A DNA stretch of 61,208 nucleotides from Terriglobia bacterium (GTDB lineage Bacteria; Acidobacteriota; Terriglobia; Acidiferrales; UBA7541). Of the stretch, positions 526-41,522 are shown one piece after another. The number at the start of each line of letters is the position of its first letter. Position 1 is the stretch's first letter. The notes under the pieces were generated by a model. That model saw only the letters and a program-made list of their open reading frames with translations, did not search any database and was not told the DNA's origin. Made by a program: the position numbers and the translations under genes. The stretch is from NCBI GenBank assembly GCA_020073585.1, contig JAIQEV010000021.1:1-61208 (forward strand), read 5' to 3'.

Positions 526-719
526 CATATTGGGAGAACGTGTTAACAAAAGAGAAACCCGGGAGAACTTTGGCGAGCGATTCCGGGTTCCAGATGCTGT
601 GTCTATACCAGGAGGCGATGCGGGCAGTGCGGCAGTGGCGCTATTCGCCAACGCTCCTCGAAGGCCAGCCGGTGGAAGTGGAAACGACAATTGATGTGAT
701 TTTTTCGCTCAATTACTAG
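522..719 (+). pseudogene. TonB C-terminal domain fragment
   Basis: The last ~38 residues (from about 606) read as the final helix and strand of a TonB energy-transducer C-terminal domain: EAMRAVRQWRYSPTLLEG followed by QPVEVETTIDVIFSL. TonB proteins couple the inner-membrane proton gradient to outer-membrane receptors. The membrane anchor, proline-rich spacer and first half of the domain are absent, and the upstream 25 codons do not look like TonB. This is a broken 3' end of a tonB gene, possibly left by insertion of the neighbouring hicB block. Confidence 0.65.
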
Positions 720-976
720 AGGTAAGCAGGGCCCATGGGTGCTCCTCCGGACGCAGCTTTTCCGACAGTTCTGGCTGCTCGGTGTTCCGCCGAGGAGGAC
801 AGTCAAGGTTTTCCTTCCGCCTTGCGGAGCTGTTTCTCCCAAAGAATGGAGCCAGATGAGAGAAGTCTGTGAGAATTTGTATATTGGAAGTGCCTAGGGC
901 CAGAAAATAGCGCCTGAGAAATCCTTATGCCGTGCATATTCAGTGAGTTGCGTTTTCCCAGTGTTCCCCGTGATAG

Positions 977-992
977 TGGCATGCGGCTTGCA
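977..992 (+). promoter_or_regulatory. Sigma-54-type -24/-12 promoter
   Basis: TGGCATGCGGCTTGCA matches the RpoN consensus (TGGCAC-N5-TTGCW), with one change in the -24 block. The invariant GG (978-979) and GC (990-991) are exactly 12 bp apart. Transcription would begin near 1003. A small perfect palindrome, TATGC-CGT-GCATA, sits at 926-938. No protein gene starts within 400 bp downstream, but an intrinsic terminator does. Confidence 0.6.
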
Positions 993-1002
993 CTTCTTTA
1001 GC

Positions 1003-1110
1003 GACAACTAACATAAGATTGGCTTCCCGGGGTGGCCGCATCCGACCTCGACTGGATCGCGGTTCTGGGGACCAAGAGCTAAAAAGGGGGCCCGCACCGG
1101 CCCCCTTTTT
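1003..1110 (+). ncRNA. Candidate sigma-54-dependent small RNA
   Basis: A transcript from the sigma-54-type promoter to the terminator would be about 108 nt. It contains several self-complementary GC-rich stretches (GGCTTCCCGGGG, GGTTCTGGGGACC) and ends in a perfect 12-bp hairpin with a U-tail. I do not recognise a known RNA family: it is not tmRNA, SRP RNA or RNase P by their conserved cores. The call rests entirely on promoter-terminator spacing. Confidence 0.35.
1081..1110. terminator. Bidirectional intrinsic terminator
   Basis: AAAAAGGGGGCC (1081-1092), loop CGCACC, GGCCCCCTTTTT (1099-1110): a perfect 12-bp inverted repeat whose arms carry A- and T-runs, so it can stop transcription on either strand. 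Confidence 0.85.
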
Positions 1111-1521
1111 CATTTCCCGGGGCTTTTGCGGTCCCGGCGCCTGCCTGCCTGATTCCTCATCTCGGACCAAGAAGGCTGGACCATCGAACGGAGGTAGTGC
1201 GCGAAGGTGGCCAGGGTGTGGGGCCAAGAAAAGAGCGGCCGGTGGGGGTGCCGGCCGCTCGGGGCGTGGGGTGATGGAGGGTATCCTGATTCATGACCGG
1301 CGCCGGCGCGCCCTTGCGGGCTCGCTCAGCTTCCGATCACGAGATGATTCTGCTTGAGGGCCCTTGCGCGGGCTATAGTCCCGGTGGTTCATTCGCGGGA
1401 GTACTTTTGAGTAGTACCTTGGTCCCTGTGGACATTTTCCGCGCCCAGCTCCCCCCGCGGTCGAAGCAGGTTTCGCCCGGCGCTACAACGGCCAAGCGCT
1501 TTGCGGTATTCTCCTAGGACC

Positions 1522-34682: not shown

Positions 34683-36011
34683 CTATTCGTACCGCAGCGC
34701 CTCCACCGGATCCAGCCGCGCCGCCTTCCACGCCGGGTACATCCCGAAGCCGATCCCGATCGCCGCGCACAGCGTCAGCGCCGTCAAGATCCAGAACACC
34801 GAGAGCGTCGCCGGAAACGACAGCACAAAACGCAGCGAAAGCCCCAGCCCCGATCCCGCCAGCACTCCGATCACCCCGCCCACCGCGCACAGCACCACCG
34901 ACTCCAGCAGAAACTGCAGCAGAATGTTGCCGCGCTTCGCCCCCATCGCCTTGCGCACCCCGATCTCCCGCGTCCGCTCCGTCACGCTCACCAGCATGAT
35001 GTTCATCACCCCGATCCCTCCCACCAGCAGCGCCACGAACGCCACCGCGAACGTCAGGATGAAGATCAGCCCGCTGATCTTGTTCCACAGCTCCAGAAAA
35101 TAGTCCGAGGTGAACAGCGCGAAATCGTCCGGCTTGTCGCTCGCCAGCCGCCGCTTCCGCCGCAGCAGCTCGCGGATCTCTTCCACCGCCTCCCCCACCT
35201 TTTCGGGATCGCGGGCCTTCGCGAAGATCACGTAGTCCTTCTGGTTCGGATAGAGCTTGCGCAGCGTCGTATCCGGCATCATGGCGATGTTATCTTCGGG
35301 ATTCTTGCCCCCGGAGATCCCCTGCTTGCGCTTCTGCGCCGTCCCGATCACCGTGAAGAGCTGCCCGTCCAGCGTGACCTCCTTCCCGACGGGGTCCTCC
35401 TGCGGATCGGGAAAAAGGATGCGCGTCGTGTCGTAGCCCAGCGCCACCACCGGCGAACGGTGCTCCATGTCCGTCTCCGTCAGCCACCGCCCGCGCTCCA
35501 GCTTGATCTCGAAAATCTTCCCCAGGTCCGGCGCGTTCCCCTGCAGGATCACGTTCTTCGCCCGGTACCCGCCGCGCCGCACGCTCGCGCTTCCGCTCCC
35601 GAACTGCGGCAGGAAAATCCGCAGCGACGCCGACGCCGCCGACACCTGCGGCAGCAGCGCCATCTCCTCCGCCCATTCCGGCTGCAGCTCCTTGCGTGTG
35701 AACCACTCGCTCGGCGGCCGCGACAGCGTCGCCCACGGAAAGCGGTAGCAGATGATAGTGTCCGAGCCCAGCTCGCGGATGCCCCCCAGCACGTTTTCGT
35801 TCAGCCCGTTGATCACCGTGCTCACCGCGATCACCGTGGTGATCCCGATCACGATGCCCAGCACGGTCAGCGCCGAGCGCAGCGGATTGCGCCGCAGCGA
35901 ATCCATGGCCAGCAGGAACGTCTCGCGCAGCTCCACCTGCCGCGCCGTCCCCGCCAGCCCGCGCAGCCGCCCCGCTCTCGCTCCGCTCATGGTCCGGCTC
36001 ATCGTGGCCAT
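34683..36011 (-). CDS. MacB-like ABC transporter permease (second gene)
   Basis: A 442-aa permease with a MacB/FtsX layout: an N-terminal helix (LRSALTVLGIVIGITTVIAVSTVI, ~45-70), a large periplasmic MacB_PCD domain to ~310, then three helices. The conserved loop GIGVMNIMLVSVTERTREIG (~335-355) and the terminal ARLDPVEALRYE are diagnostic. These proteins transmit ATP-driven force to periplasmic partners for export or signalling. No nucleotide-binding subunit is fused or adjacent, so the ATPase must be encoded elsewhere. It lies 12 bp downstream of a paralogue and probably forms a heterodimer with it. Confidence 0.9.
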   Translation of the reverse strand: MATMSRTMSGARAGRLRGLAGTARQVELRETFLLAMDSLRRNPLRSALTVLGIVIGITTVIAVSTVINGLNENVLGGIRELGSDTIICYRFPWATLSRPPSEWFTRKELQPEWAEEMALLPQVSAASASLRIFLPQFGSGSASVRRGGYRAKNVILQGNAPDLGKIFEIKLERGRWLTETDMEHRSPVVALGYDTTRILFPDPQEDPVGKEVTLDGQLFTVIGTAQKRKQGISGGKNPEDNIAMMPDTTLRKLYPNQKDYVIFAKARDPEKVGEAVEEIRELLRRKRRLASDKPDDFALFTSDYFLELWNKISGLIFILTFAVAFVALLVGGIGVMNIMLVSVTERTREIGVRKAMGAKRGNILLQFLLESVVLCAVGGVIGVLAGSGLGLSLRFVLSFPATLSVFWILTALTLCAAIGIGFGMYPAWKAARLDPVEALRYE

Positions 36012-36023
36012 CGTTCGTCCGCC

Positions 36024-37265
36024 CTACTCCGAGCGCAGCGCCACCACCGGGTCCAGCCGCGCCGCCTTCGACGCCGGATAGGTCCCGAAGAACAGCCCCA
36101 CGCTCAGCGCCACCAGCAATCCCCCCAGCACCGACCACAACTGCACCGCGCTCGGCAGCGGTGAGACCCACGACACCAGCTTCGCCACCAGCACTCCCAG
36201 CGCCACTCCCAGCGCCCCGCCGACCAGCGCGATCGTGGACGACTCGATCAGGAACTGCAGCAGAATGTCCGCCCGCCGCGCTCCCACCGACTTCCGCAGC
36301 CCGATCTCCCGCGTCCGCTCCGTCACGCTCACCAGCATGATGTTCATGATCACGATCCCGCCCACCACCAGCGAAATCGAGGCGATGGCGATGGTCACGA
36401 AGAAAAACGTCGAGCTGATGCTCTTCCACAGCTCCAGAAACGAATCGCTCGTCTCCAGGCTGAAATCATCCTTCGCTCCATACATCAGGTGCCGCCGCCC
36501 GCGCATGATCTGCCGCACTTCATCCACCGTCACCTGAATGCGCGCCGCCGCCGCTGTCCGCGCCGTCACCCGCAGCGAATCCCGCGGCGACCCGAACTCC
36601 TTCCGGTAGGTGTTCAGCGGCAGGATGATCCAGTTGTCCTGCGAATTCCCCAGCGCCGACCCCAGCTTCGTCCCCACCCCGATGACCTGGCAGGGCAGAT
36701 TGTTCCAGCGGATCTCCTTCCCCAGCGCGTCCACCCCCGGCAGCAGATTCTCCACCACGTCCCAGCCCAGCACGCACACCGGCGCCGCGCTGCGCATGTC
36801 GGACTCGTTGATGTGCCGCCCCGCCGCCAGCTCCACGTCGTAGAGCTGCGCCATCTGCGGCGTCCACGCCCGCAAATTCGTGTCCTTCACCGAGTTCAGC
36901 CCGGACTTCGTCTCCACCCGCCCGCCCAGCGACGCTCCCACTTCCGTGCAGCTCCGGCACAGCTCGCGCACCGCCTCGTAGTCCTCGTAGGTGATCGGCT
37001 TGCGCTTCTGAAATTCCAGGTAGTCGTCCACGTTGGTGACGATGGACGGCTGCTTGGCCAGACCGAAGACGTCCGCGCCCAGCCGGAACACCTTCTCCGT
37101 GACGTAGCGGTTGGCCCCGTTGATCAGGCTCACCACCGCGATCACCGAGGTCACCCCGATCACCACGCCCAGCAGCGTCAGCACACTGCGCAGCTTGTGC
37201 GCCCACAAACTGGACGTGGCAATCCCCACCGCCTCCGAAAAATTCATCGTCGATCGTCGCGCCAT
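36024..37265 (-). CDS. MacB-like ABC transporter permease (first gene)
   Basis: A 413-aa paralogue of the downstream permease. The first helix is LRSVLTLLGVVIGVTSVIAVVS, the MacB_PCD periplasmic domain spans ~60-280, and the conserved IVIMNIMLVSVTERTREIG and ARLDPVVALRSE segments follow. The tandem arrangement suggests a heteromeric transporter. The start could be MARRSTM at 37265 or the internal MNFSEAV (37247); the latter gives the usual N-terminal cytoplasmic helix. It carries no ATPase domain. A convergent/adjacent TonB receptor gene begins upstream on the same strand, separated by a terminator. Confidence 0.9.
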   Translation of the reverse strand: MARRSTMNFSEAVGIATSSLWAHKLRSVLTLLGVVIGVTSVIAVVSLINGANRYVTEKVFRLGADVFGLAKQPSIVTNVDDYLEFQKRKPITYEDYEAVRELCRSCTEVGASLGGRVETKSGLNSVKDTNLRAWTPQMAQLYDVELAAGRHINESDMRSAAPVCVLGWDVVENLLPGVDALGKEIRWNNLPCQVIGVGTKLGSALGNSQDNWIILPLNTYRKEFGSPRDSLRVTARTAAAARIQVTVDEVRQIMRGRRHLMYGAKDDFSLETSDSFLELWKSISSTFFFVTIAIASISLVVGGIVIMNIMLVSVTERTREIGLRKSVGARRADILLQFLIESSTIALVGGALGVALGVLVAKLVSWVSPLPSAVQLWSVLGGLLVALSVGLFFGTYPASKAARLDPVVALRSE

Positions 37266-37433: not shown

Positions 37434-40400
37434 TTAGAAGGTGAACCGCAGCCCCAGACGGATGCTACGGCCCGTCTGGAACAGATAGGGCTTTCCGTAT
37501 TGGCTGTTCACGGTGATCGGACCAGCACCGCTGACCAGGTTGGTTGGCGCGTTGTTTAGCAGGGCCGCCACGTTATACGGATGCTCGGCGGCAGAGTAGA
37601 AGGGCGCACCGTCAAAGATGGCATGCCCTCCGGGCGTGATGAACTGTTGGGAATAGTTGGAGTCAATCTGCGAATAGTACGCAGTGGTTGCCCTCCTGTT
37701 GAACAGGTTGGTGAAATTTGCGTAGAACCTGATGGCCATTCTTTCGTGGAATTTGAGGTTCTGTCCCACGTTGAAGTCGGCCTGTGTGAACCAGGGTGTC
37801 CGCTTGACATAGGGATTGCTCACGGTAATTACGCCCGTGGCCGGGTCTTGGGTGACGTCTATCCACTTCCCACGGCCTGCGACCAGCGTCGGGAATGCTC
37901 CCGGAAAGGCGTAACCAACGTCCACGTAGCTGGTCTGCGCCGTGCCACTGTAAGCGTTGGCGAACAGCCCGATGTCGGTAGAGTGGTGGTGGCCCTCTGT
38001 CAACTCGTAATACGCCCATCCCTTAAAGGCATTCGGGCGATCGGTGGGCAGCGGTCCGCTGGCGGACTTGCCGTTCGCGTCCCAGGAGAAGTAAGGTTCG
38101 TCGAAGGCGCGGCTGTTGTTCGGCGAATTACGTCCTCCGCCGGCGTCACCGAGGTCCGTGCTGGTCAGGCCCGAGTAATTACCCCACAGCCTGCTATAGG
38201 TATAGGAGAACGAGCCGGCCCAATGGCTGCTGTATGCCTTTGTCAGGCGAATTTCCAGCCCATCGTAATTGCGCTGCACCGGGATGTTGTCCGGGCAGGC
38301 CGGGGTGGACGTTGCTGTGCATCCGCTGGAGACGCCGTAAAGGAACTTGTAGAAACCATCGAAGGTTTTGTTGACGCCTTCGCCGGGGTTAACGATGACG
38401 AAAGTCTCGCCAATGTTGGGGTTGAATATGGCCGAGTCTTCGATCGCGTGATCGAGACGGCGGCGGTCCCAACGCGCTTCGAGGGCCAGGTTTTTTGCCA
38501 CTTGGTAGTCAGCTCCAAGCGTGGATTCATGTTGCCGGTAGGGTTTGAGGCCTGGAACTACACCCTCTTGCGTGGCCGTGCATGTGGCGCACGTGGTGGG
38601 AAAGGTGCGGTAATTTTGGTTTTCCAGGAACGTCAGCCCCGCAGGGGTGGTACCCCCTGCCCAATTGGCTTGGCTGGAGGCATCCGGGCCACTGCAGTAG
38701 CGGCCATTGTTGTCGAACGCCGGAAGGATCGAGGCGAGGTTCGATGTATCAAGAGCGTAGGCGCAGTTCTGCCAGTACTGGCCGCCAAAGGAACTGATGG
38801 CCAGATTCAGCTTCATGATGTCATTGACTACGCCGTAGCCCCCGAACACCTTCAACTTGCCGTTCCGGAAAACGTCCCAAGCGGCGCCCAGGCGGGGAGC
38901 AATCTTATCGCCCCAGCCGAAGCTGATGGGAGTTGACGGTGCGCCGGCTGGCTGATTCTCCGCGGGCAAGTATTCCTTCTCGATGCGCATGCCCGCATTG
39001 ATGGTGATGCCATGCCCCACGGTCCAGGAATCCTGGAGAAAGAAACCGTGGTTGCGGCTGAGGGCATAGCCGGAAGAACCATAATCCTCCACCTGCGCCC
39101 AGCCGTAGAGACCCTGGCATTGGCCGTAGAGGGAGACGAACGGTGCGCAATTGGCCGTGCCGACCGGGCCTTGCGCAACGTAGGGAGATGCGGTTCCGAC
39201 GTATAGATTCACCGCCGGTTCATTGAACCGCTGGTAGATGTCGTTGCTCAATTGATTGAGCTGATAGCCGAACTTGAAGTTGTGAGTGCCCCGCCATCCG
39301 CTCTTGTACCAGGCAAAATCCTGGTTGAACTGGGTATGCTTGTTTGCGTTGCGGACCGTGGTGTTGATGTTGTGCGCCACATTGAAGTAGCCGGTGCCTT
39401 GCTGCAAGGAAGCGGGCAGCGCATTTCCCTGCGCGTCCGTTGCGCCCGGAAGGCCGCTCGTCTGCCAGATGAATATGCTGCCACCCGTCGGGAAGCCGAA
39501 GTCCCGATAGTTCTCAAAATAATAGCCGAACCTGGTGGTGGAGATCAGGCGCTGCGTAATCGTGTAGTCGGCGCCGACGTTAAGGGTATTGTTGGGAGCG
39601 CCGAAGCCCAGAGCGTGATTGAACGCAAAGGCCGGTATGGTCGAGCTGACGTTATAGAAGCCCTGAGTCGAATCCGCGTAAGGCATTGCCTGGCCGCTTT
39701 CGCGCTGATACTGGTAGAGCCAGGACACATACACGCGAAGCTTGCTCGTTACGCTCAGATCCACGCGCGCGTTGGTATAGTAGGTTTGCTGGTTCTGGTC
39801 AAAGTTCAGTGTGCCTAAACCTTGTGAGCTGAAGTCCACCGCTCGGCGGATCTTTGTGAATTGCGGATTGAACCCCACGAAGAACCAGAGACGATCCTTC
39901 TTGACGGGGCCGCCCAGCGTGAAACCGGGGAAGAAGTCCCTGACGCTGTCCTTCTTGGGATTGTATTGCTGGTACGTGGGGTCGATTGCCCCCCAGCTTG
40001 TTGGCGTGCCATTCGAACTGGGATCGTAACGGGAGTAGTCGGGTGCCGCCGCACTCATCCCCGACGAACTGTACTGTGTGAACAGGGAACCGTGCCAAGT
40101 GTTGCCGCCCTTCTTCATGATCACGTTGGCCACGCCACCCAAAGCGCCGCCGTGTTCGGCTTCGACGCCCGAAGTCTTCACCTGTACTTCCTCGATGAAA
40201 TCGAATGGCACGTTGGTGTGGGAATAACCGCCGATATTGTTGGCCGTATCCTGGCCTTCGACAAGGTATCCGTTTTCCGAGTCCGCAGCGCCGCCGACCT
40301 GGTATCCGGCTGACGCGCCGTTCGAACATCCTGTCGGAGAGCAGCCCCCTGTGCCGGCGAAGTTGTTGTACCCGTTCCCCCCCATCAAGGGCTCGTTGCG

Positions 40401-40934
40401 CGCAGAGGGAGCAAACTGGATGATCGACTGGAAAGACTCCCCATGCGGAACAAGATTGATAACGTCCTGGGTAACGTTCGTCATGGTGCGTGAAGTCGTA
40501 GTGTCAATTAACGGAGTTTGGGCGCTTACCTCCACAACGGTTTCCGAGCCGCCAACTTCCAGAGCAATATCGATCGAGGGCAGGTGTCCGACCTCGAGAT
40601 TTAGGCCTTCGCGCTTGACGGTCCTGAAGCCTTTCGCCGTCACCGTGATGGTGTAACTGCCCGGCGGAAGATTGGCGAAACGATAGTAGCCGCTTGCATC
40701 CGTCTCGGCTTCCTTGCTGCCCACCAGCGCAGTGCCTGTCACCACCACCTTCGCATTGGGCACCACCGCCCCGGAGGGATCCTTGACCGTACCCTGCAGA
40801 CCGCCCGTGGTCTCCTGGGCGGACACGCTGGCGACGAACGGCAGCCTCTGCGTGGGCATCAGGCCGGGTATGGCTAGCAGCAGGATCGCCAACCACGCGA
40901 CACGTATGACCGCGTATCTAGAATGCATCTTCAT
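37434..40934 (-). CDS. Oar-like TonB-dependent receptor with N-terminal regulatory-like domain
   Basis: A 1166-aa outer-membrane protein. It has a signal peptide (to ~40), then a carboxypeptidase-regulatory/Cna-B-like domain (TGGLQGTVKDPSGAVVPNAKV ... YRFANLPPGSYTITV, ~45-125). A plug-like region follows (~145-270, with a PLIDTTTSRTMTNVTQ segment), then a long beta-barrel ending RLGLRFTF with a C-terminal phenylalanine. This architecture is abundant in Acidobacteriota, where such receptors are thought to import plant-polymer oligosaccharides or peptides; the ligand here is unknown. It is monocistronic, with its own terminator (37364-37392) and a sigma-54-type promoter at 41105-41120. No SusD partner is present. 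Confidence 0.92.
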   Translation of the reverse strand: MKMHSRYAVIRVAWLAILLLAIPGLMPTQRLPFVASVSAQETTGGLQGTVKDPSGAVVPNAKVVVTGTALVGSKEAETDASGYYRFANLPPGSYTITVTAKGFRTVKREGLNLEVGHLPSIDIALEVGGSETVVEVSAQTPLIDTTTSRTMTNVTQDVINLVPHGESFQSIIQFAPSARNEPLMGGNGYNNFAGTGGCSPTGCSNGASAGYQVGGAADSENGYLVEGQDTANNIGGYSHTNVPFDFIEEVQVKTSGVEAEHGGALGGVANVIMKKGGNTWHGSLFTQYSSSGMSAAAPDYSRYDPSSNGTPTSWGAIDPTYQQYNPKKDSVRDFFPGFTLGGPVKKDRLWFFVGFNPQFTKIRRAVDFSSQGLGTLNFDQNQQTYYTNARVDLSVTSKLRVYVSWLYQYQRESGQAMPYADSTQGFYNVSSTIPAFAFNHALGFGAPNNTLNVGADYTITQRLISTTRFGYYFENYRDFGFPTGGSIFIWQTSGLPGATDAQGNALPASLQQGTGYFNVAHNINTTVRNANKHTQFNQDFAWYKSGWRGTHNFKFGYQLNQLSNDIYQRFNEPAVNLYVGTASPYVAQGPVGTANCAPFVSLYGQCQGLYGWAQVEDYGSSGYALSRNHGFFLQDSWTVGHGITINAGMRIEKEYLPAENQPAGAPSTPISFGWGDKIAPRLGAAWDVFRNGKLKVFGGYGVVNDIMKLNLAISSFGGQYWQNCAYALDTSNLASILPAFDNNGRYCSGPDASSQANWAGGTTPAGLTFLENQNYRTFPTTCATCTATQEGVVPGLKPYRQHESTLGADYQVAKNLALEARWDRRRLDHAIEDSAIFNPNIGETFVIVNPGEGVNKTFDGFYKFLYGVSSGCTATSTPACPDNIPVQRNYDGLEIRLTKAYSSHWAGSFSYTYSRLWGNYSGLTSTDLGDAGGGRNSPNNSRAFDEPYFSWDANGKSASGPLPTDRPNAFKGWAYYELTEGHHHSTDIGLFANAYSGTAQTSYVDVGYAFPGAFPTLVAGRGKWIDVTQDPATGVITVSNPYVKRTPWFTQADFNVGQNLKFHERMAIRFYANFTNLFNRRATTAYYSQIDSNYSQQFITPGGHAIFDGAPFYSAAEHPYNVAALLNNAPTNLVSGAGPITVNSQYGKPYLFQTGRSIRLGLRFTF

Positions 40935-41104
40935 CTGTTCTCCTTACGAATTGTTGTTCAATTGCCTCTGAACTCAGAGTACGGACGCCCCGTTTTACCC
41001 AACGAAAACCATTTTCGGGTTTATTCGACAACTGAACCCGCACGCCACAACCCCTCTGGCGCAAATTAAATCTCACCGGGTGACACTTGGGCGGGCGGCT
41101 TCAC

Positions 41105-41120
41105 TGCAAGAAAGTAGCCA
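41105..41120 (-). promoter_or_regulatory. Sigma-54-type promoter of the TonB receptor
   Basis: On the minus strand TGGCTACTTTCTTGCA matches the -24/-12 pattern, with GG and GC 12 bp apart. The start would fall near 41093, leaving a ~160-nt leader before the receptor ATG. Confidence 0.55.
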
Positions 41121-41213
41121 GGATCAGTGTTATATAGCTCCTGTGTAATCTGCATGATAGGAGCATGTATACAGGAGTATTTCCTCTTGTTCCGTTTTTT
41201 CAAATTTTTATAC

Positions 41214-41236
41214 GTAATATGGTATCGCCATATTAC
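41214..41236. promoter_or_regulatory. Palindrome, possible enhancer-binding site
   Basis: GTAATATGG, spacer TATCG, CCATATTAC: a perfect 9-bp inverted repeat centred about 105 bp upstream of the -24 element. That is the usual distance for activators of sigma-54 polymerase. Confidence 0.45.
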
Positions 41237-41522
41237 TTTGACCATTCTTTCTGATTTGCTCTCGTCTAGTTGGGCTAGGCAGAGGACGTAGAACTGACAG
41301 TTCCGTCAAGACGATCCGGCCATTTCCATCACCCCGCCGGCCGCTTTTACGCTTCGCATTGCCCGGAAATGGCGGCGAAATTCAGACTTACGCCGCAGAA
41401 TTCGGCAAATTGAGAGGCACCACAACCGTCTCGGCTTTTTCCTGCCGTGCCGCGACGCACTTCAGCCAATCAGTTGTCTTCAGGGAATTGAAATGGGAAT
41501 AAGAATGAGAAGGAGAAGGGAA

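Follow-up and report, generated by a model that had tools for sequence, protein, structure and literature searches.

What drives the transcription of a large Oar-like outer-membrane receptor in an uncultured Terriglobia acidobacterium from soil? The question is raised by a contig of 61,208 nucleotides (the window, by which we mean the whole stretch of DNA analysed) from a 4.03-Mb genome assembly of 113 contigs, whose dozens of Oar-like receptors are, as far as our literature search shows, under undescribed control. An earlier note on this DNA had read a sigma-54 promoter and an upstream palindrome ahead of the receptor and had proposed activator-dependent control. The features of the receptor region are:

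37434-40934, minus strand: Oar-like receptor of 1166 aa, with a CarboxypepD_reg domain and an outer-membrane beta barrel (OMP_b-brl_4).
41105-41120, minus strand: -24/-12 element TGGCTACTTTCTTGCA, located by direct reading and supported by orthologue comparison.
41138-41177, minus strand: inverted repeat CTCCTGT...ACAGGAG, specific to the window; no function is claimed.
41209-41226, minus strand: activator-site-like dyad GATACCATATTACGTATA, from sequence comparison; it starts 105 bp before the TGGC and is centred at about -123.
41214-41236, minus strand: perfect palindrome GTAATATGG-CGATA-CCATATTAC with 9-bp arms, the right arm lying inside the conserved dyad.

Two Pfam families exceed the cut-off in the receptor, PF13620 and PF25183 (a carboxypeptidase-regulatory-like N-terminal domain and a large outer-membrane barrel). 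No Pfam plug family reaches E 0.001, weak FepA/CirA matches at about 240-292 being far below the cut-off, and the structure model (mean pLDDT 32) is too poor for use; the label of TonB receptor is likely. Its ribosome-binding site and start codon occupy 40947-40932 on the minus strand, with the ATG at 40934. Two MacB/FtsX-type permease genes lie 3' of it (34683-37265, minus strand). A conserved receptor operon was rejected, as these genes do not follow the receptor in the nearest-orthologue locus (L078); among loci L078-L088, the window has its neighbours on the ruvC side in common only with L078 and L080. The latter belongs to Candidatus Acidiferrum typicum UBA7541, a Terriglobia acidobacterium, and over 400 bp its receptor upstream does not differ from the one in G034, a genome marked as the same genus.

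On the minus strand (41120-41105), TGGCTACTTTCTTGCA has GG-N10-GC spacing and is the -24/-12 site that the earlier note had described. The TGGC starts 186 nt ahead of the receptor ATG, the note's figure of about 170 bp fitting the -12, and the usual sigma-54 spacing would place the transcription start near 41094. Taken alone, this match is not significant and no rarer than chance: the window holds two matches to TGGC-N7-TTGCW versus 1.46 expected. Genome-wide, the strict pattern yields 96 sites versus 56 for a backward control; the weights for the -24/-12 and sigma-70 elements used throughout are approximations. The genome encodes one rpoN and gives about 20 strong matches to the enhancer-binding-protein ATPase (PF00158 profile), a profile that alone is unspecific (matches in 14 of 14 control genomes); a GAFTGA-like motif is present in 18 of 19 of these ATPase matches.

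The perfect 9-bp palindrome was also found as described, and chance estimates make it rare: 0.03 occurrences of its core, with up to 3 mismatches, are expected in the window, one other place in the 4.03-Mb genome resembles it (3 mismatches), and a perfect 9+9 palindrome (gap 3-9) arose within 600 bp upstream in 0.3% of 300 shuffles. The second inverted repeat does lie between palindrome and promoter. Among 50 receptor upstreams the exact palindrome core occurs once, and so does the 41138-41177 repeat, each time in the window itself. Absence of the palindrome from orthologous loci had been named beforehand as a refutation, and none of the other 49 upstreams has its exact core; the full palindrome as a conserved operator and the repeat as a conserved element were both rejected. 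The conserved element, ATACCATATTACGTAT, includes the right arm of the palindrome and is shifted towards the promoter relative to it. The proposal of an activator site some 105 bp above the -24 is supported by comparison, but the palindrome as written is not that site, only its right half being conserved. A reversed match to the dyad model overlaps the dyad site of the window, and the palindrome may be readable as an inverted second half-copy of the dyad.

The dyad, with a pattern of about WTAYN-N6-NRTAK, is common to the clade of receptor orthologues. Among the sources of the orthologues is a class sample in which 28 of 399 genomes, ours included, gave a match at E up to 1e-250; partial matches lacking the N-terminus (L037, L038, L044, L047, L049, L050, and L090) were left aside. 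Of the 50 upstreams, 8 were dropped as near-duplicates and 12 as belonging to more distant receptors, and 420 bp upstream of each of the 30 non-redundant orthologues entered motif discovery. The dyad motif scored 88 (restarts 74 and 72), as against 50.2 +- 2.7 and at most 55.5 for 40 shuffles; with the set reduced to 24 sequences the scores, obtained without a motif read-out, were 59-61, and 30 shuffles reached no more than 51.6. The model was built on 22 sites picked by hand from the 30 orthologues, the other 8 having no usable dyad. A -24-like element stands 99-110 bp from the dyad in 13 of the 22 (counting L141 by its second-best site and L036 with a weak -24 of 5.3), 124 bp away in two, and 131-132 bp away in another two. 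When the sites are collapsed to 17 dyad groups, the -24/-12 falls at 98-111 bp in 9 and at 98-133 bp in 12, with 0 or 1 in the other 14-bp bins. Models that leave out one clade at a time keep a distance of 99-132 bp in 15 of 22, and 5 of the 20 upstreams outside the model show it at 102-114 bp (L034, L035, L041, L042, and L127, the last unconvincing in that it sits too close to the start codon). At 7.5 bits, -24/-12 elements are found in 21 orthologues on the forward and 6 on the reverse strand, and in 8 paralogues; by position, 5 of 29 paralogues (L014, L016, L022, L025, and L031) have a dyad match at 96-122 bp, none of them with a -24 score of 7.5. The dyad pattern has 23 matches in the genome; of the 22 that were scored (L163 being the one without a score), the receptor alone combines the dyad with a good -24 at a suitable spacing. 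As the main clade of the receptor tree does not include L041 and L042, the arrangement of dyad and promoter may have arisen earlier and been lost in places; the tree itself, whose group labels were assigned after the sites had been seen, is undecided on its age (4 changes versus a shuffled mean of 4.6).

A scan with the receptor model picked out a second place in the window, 866-992, where a near-consensus -24/-12 is followed about 100 bp on by a terminator, before serS:

866-883, plus strand: dyad of the same type TCTGTGAGAATTTGTATA, upstream of the small RNA and 110 bp before the TGGC.
977-992, plus strand: -24/-12 element of the small RNA TGGCATGCGGCTTGCA, from pattern match and locus alignment.
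1001-1112, plus strand: small-RNA candidate, conceivably a short ORF, with an intrinsic terminator at 1086-1110.

A second copy, 92% identical, is located at G000:C108:2531-2683. Searches at the DNA level matched 35 of 101 relatives (G057 over 43 bases only), and a covariance model matched 41 of 399 class genomes, including 34 of the 36 of the genus, the matches outside the genus being mostly weak and some partial. An alignment of 30 loci, five of which (L172, L174, L179, L180, and L195) were misplaced by framing, shows conservation of the promoter, the RNA body, and the terminator; in 28 clean sequences, 5 of 23 stem pairs changed on both sides and still pair. A search of window 700-1500 against 4227 Rfam families (E up to 1) returned one sub-threshold match, at 811-844 on the other strand. 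By these comparisons the candidate has a predicted sigma-54 promoter, a structured body, and a terminator, and with no convincing Rfam match we regard it as a so far undescribed RNA. In 12 loci chosen from the better assemblies glmM, a gene for the synthesis of cell-envelope precursors, always lies 0.3-5.8 kb upstream of it, and serS lies downstream in 9. Compared with 67.5 kb of G009, only 602-2497 of the window matches (99.9%), the match stopping inside serS (about 2497), and the genome holds a second glmM-RNA-serS copy on C108. The first 2.5 kb of the contig probably stem from elsewhere in the genome or from a different genome, a chimera that affects the RNA copy of the window, not the receptor region.

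Do receptor and small RNA answer to the same activator? In each of the 28 distinct RNA upstreams the receptor dyad model scores highest at the same place, 110-114 bp from the TGGC, these upstreams being close relatives and hence few independent tests (single-locus shuffle p 0.01 to 0.49). When the best dyad at 96-135 bp was scored for each of the 96 strict -24/-12 sites, the receptor reached 14.9 (as expected with a model trained on its orthologues, its own site left out), followed by the two RNA copies with 12.0 and 10.4 and by a fourth site with 6.0. From this, one shared activator appears rather likely. It is fairly unlikely that the receptor depends on sigma-54 while another activator controls the small RNA, the two sites resembling each other by coincidence: such a reading would account for the differing left half (TCTGTG versus mostly TAC), for the wide range of single-locus p values, and for the family-level matches of the RNA (L248-L251), where a clear -24/-12 is found in L249, L250, and L251, not in L248, and the dyad is not clearly kept in any of the four, yet it leaves the constant position in all RNA upstreams and the rank of both copies directly after the receptor as accidents. 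Both dyads of the window also have the 9-mer AAAGAATGG a few tens of bases above them (841-849, plus strand; 41242-41251, minus strand), either a further shared element or a coincidence.

Most sister receptors of the same genome present another promoter class. The own-genome search gave 43 rows (the receptor, 29 others with a locus, 4 second pieces, and 9 further places), and our statements on paralogues cover 29 of the approximately 38 other places. Blind motif discovery on these 29 upstreams returned CTTGACA, with TTGAC in 22 of the 29 best sites; -24/-12 elements at 9 bits occur in 2 on the forward and 4 on the reverse strand. At 11 bits or more they are found in 9 of 30 orthologue upstreams on the forward strand and 1 of 30 on the reverse strand, versus 0 of 29 paralogues. 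The expectation that other Oar-like receptors would carry the same promoter and palindrome found no support, and a receptor regulon was rejected, the 29 examined paralogues being without it. The TTGACA model scores at least 8 in 1 of 30 orthologues (L138) versus 8 of 12 more distant receptors, and the clade of the window receptor therefore mostly lacks the TTGACA-type box usual in its sisters. A -24-like site scoring about 10 bits is present in two paralogues, L011 and L028. The upstream of the latter, also an Oar-like receptor (G000:C33:15903-16667, minus strand), has no TTGAC but carries TGGAATGTGTCGTGCA at 223 bp from the start and, another 140 bp above that, a site resembling the dyad; L028 is a possible second sigma-54 receptor.

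These comparisons bear on a reading that we consider improbable, in which the -24/-12 and the AT-rich dyad reflect chance or shared ancestry and a sigma-70 promoter reads the receptor. A weak sigma-70-like site does exist (TTGAAA-16-AATACT, 41203-41176), itself at chance level (1 found versus 0.6 expected), as is the -24/-12 match when taken alone. What this reading fails to explain is that the distance from dyad to -24/-12 is kept while the spacer between them, in the window and its nearest orthologue L033 (88 and 89 bp), has sunk to the shuffled level of identity (0.56 versus 0.58); of five other spacer pairs, two are at or below the shuffled mean identity and three above it. Moreover, the method that recovers TTGACA-type boxes in the paralogues does so in a single orthologue. 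Still less probable is that the dyad serves some other kind of regulator (a repressor or a sigma-70 activator) and that the -24/-12 matters little, for even though 5 of the 22 dyad-bearing orthologues (L122, L125, L135, and L137 among them) have no -24/-12 at the expected spacing, the dyad stands at widely varying distances from the start codon and at a steady one from the -24/-12.

We thus hold with good confidence to sigma-54 transcription of the receptor, with an enhancer-binding protein at the dyad and the same activator probably acting on the small RNA. Sigma-54 RNA polymerase would transcribe the receptor from the -24/-12 at 41105-41120; a putative bacterial enhancer-binding protein, encoded off this contig, would bind the dyad at 41209-41226 (about -123) and drive open-complex formation. 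Because the open complex would need the activator at the dyad, receptor expression would stay absent or low as long as nothing triggers that activator; the small RNA near glmM would probably be switched on by this protein too. The earlier claim of sigma-54 control of an Oar-like receptor accordingly stands as a prediction, backed by what comparison brings out: a conserved site at a conserved spacing, and paralogues that belong to a different promoter class. Beyond this, we infer an activator, a shared regulon, dependence on sigma-54 in vivo, and any physiological role.

As to the activator, PF00158 has no match on the contig, and BLAST with one of the genome's own activators as query gave no match in the window or near orthologues L078-L088, on which grounds a locally encoded activator was rejected. 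The first candidate is a 331-aa enhancer-binding protein without a recognisable sensor domain, encoded after rsfS. It stands beside glmM and the small RNA in G033 (L210:7976-8968), in the order obgE-nadD-rsfS-activator-glmM-RNA, and in our own genome it is found elsewhere, in a nadD-rsfS-activator run (L213, G000:C55). With 18 own activators as queries, none was detected near the RNA in the other 11 loci or in the window; its adjacency in G033 is only a lead. With one receptor clade set apart by a distinct promoter class and a definable site, both activator and signal become searchable, and an envelope circuit is suggested by the associated small RNA, which almost all genomes of the genus carry.

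To our knowledge, the dyad of the window matches no known activator site. The arrangement resembles sigma-54 promoters with upstream enhancer-binding-protein sites in its GG-N10-GC spacing, in a dyad about 100-130 bp up, and in the presence of rpoN and activators; the dyad and the putative activator of the window are predictions from sequence. A full-text literature search, with most subscription journals outside its coverage, found nothing on this arrangement. In one study, sigma-54 control of TonB (COG0810) is predicted in Flavobacteriia and unconfirmed by its authors (PMC12316311); it likewise links sigma-54 to TonB-type uptake, but concerns TonB itself, and the searched text holds no instance of 'acidobact'. 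The view of sigma-54 as controller of the bacterial exterior, whose targets concern the cell exterior (PMC3162934), offers a general likeness to the receptor case; 'acidobact' and 'tonb' do not occur in the searched text of that paper. A further likeness is the QseF-glmY circuit of E. coli, which comprises a sigma-54-dependent cell-envelope small RNA with upstream activator sites and an activator that also serves a protein gene, rpoE (PMC6075780). Its site consensus, TGT-N12-ACA, is unlike the window dyad, and glmY adjoins its activator (same source), whereas our RNA lies near glmM with an activator gene adjacent in 1 of 12 loci. By the Rfam search of the window copy, our RNA is unrelated to GlmY/GlmZ. 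What we propose as common to both is a sigma-54 small RNA and a protein gene under one activator. Tentatively, and with rather less than even confidence, we suggest that in Terriglobia one enhancer-binding protein, with the 331-aa protein as first candidate, may couple the glmM-near small RNA to the Oar-like receptor, as a counterpart of QseF-GlmY built from unrelated parts.
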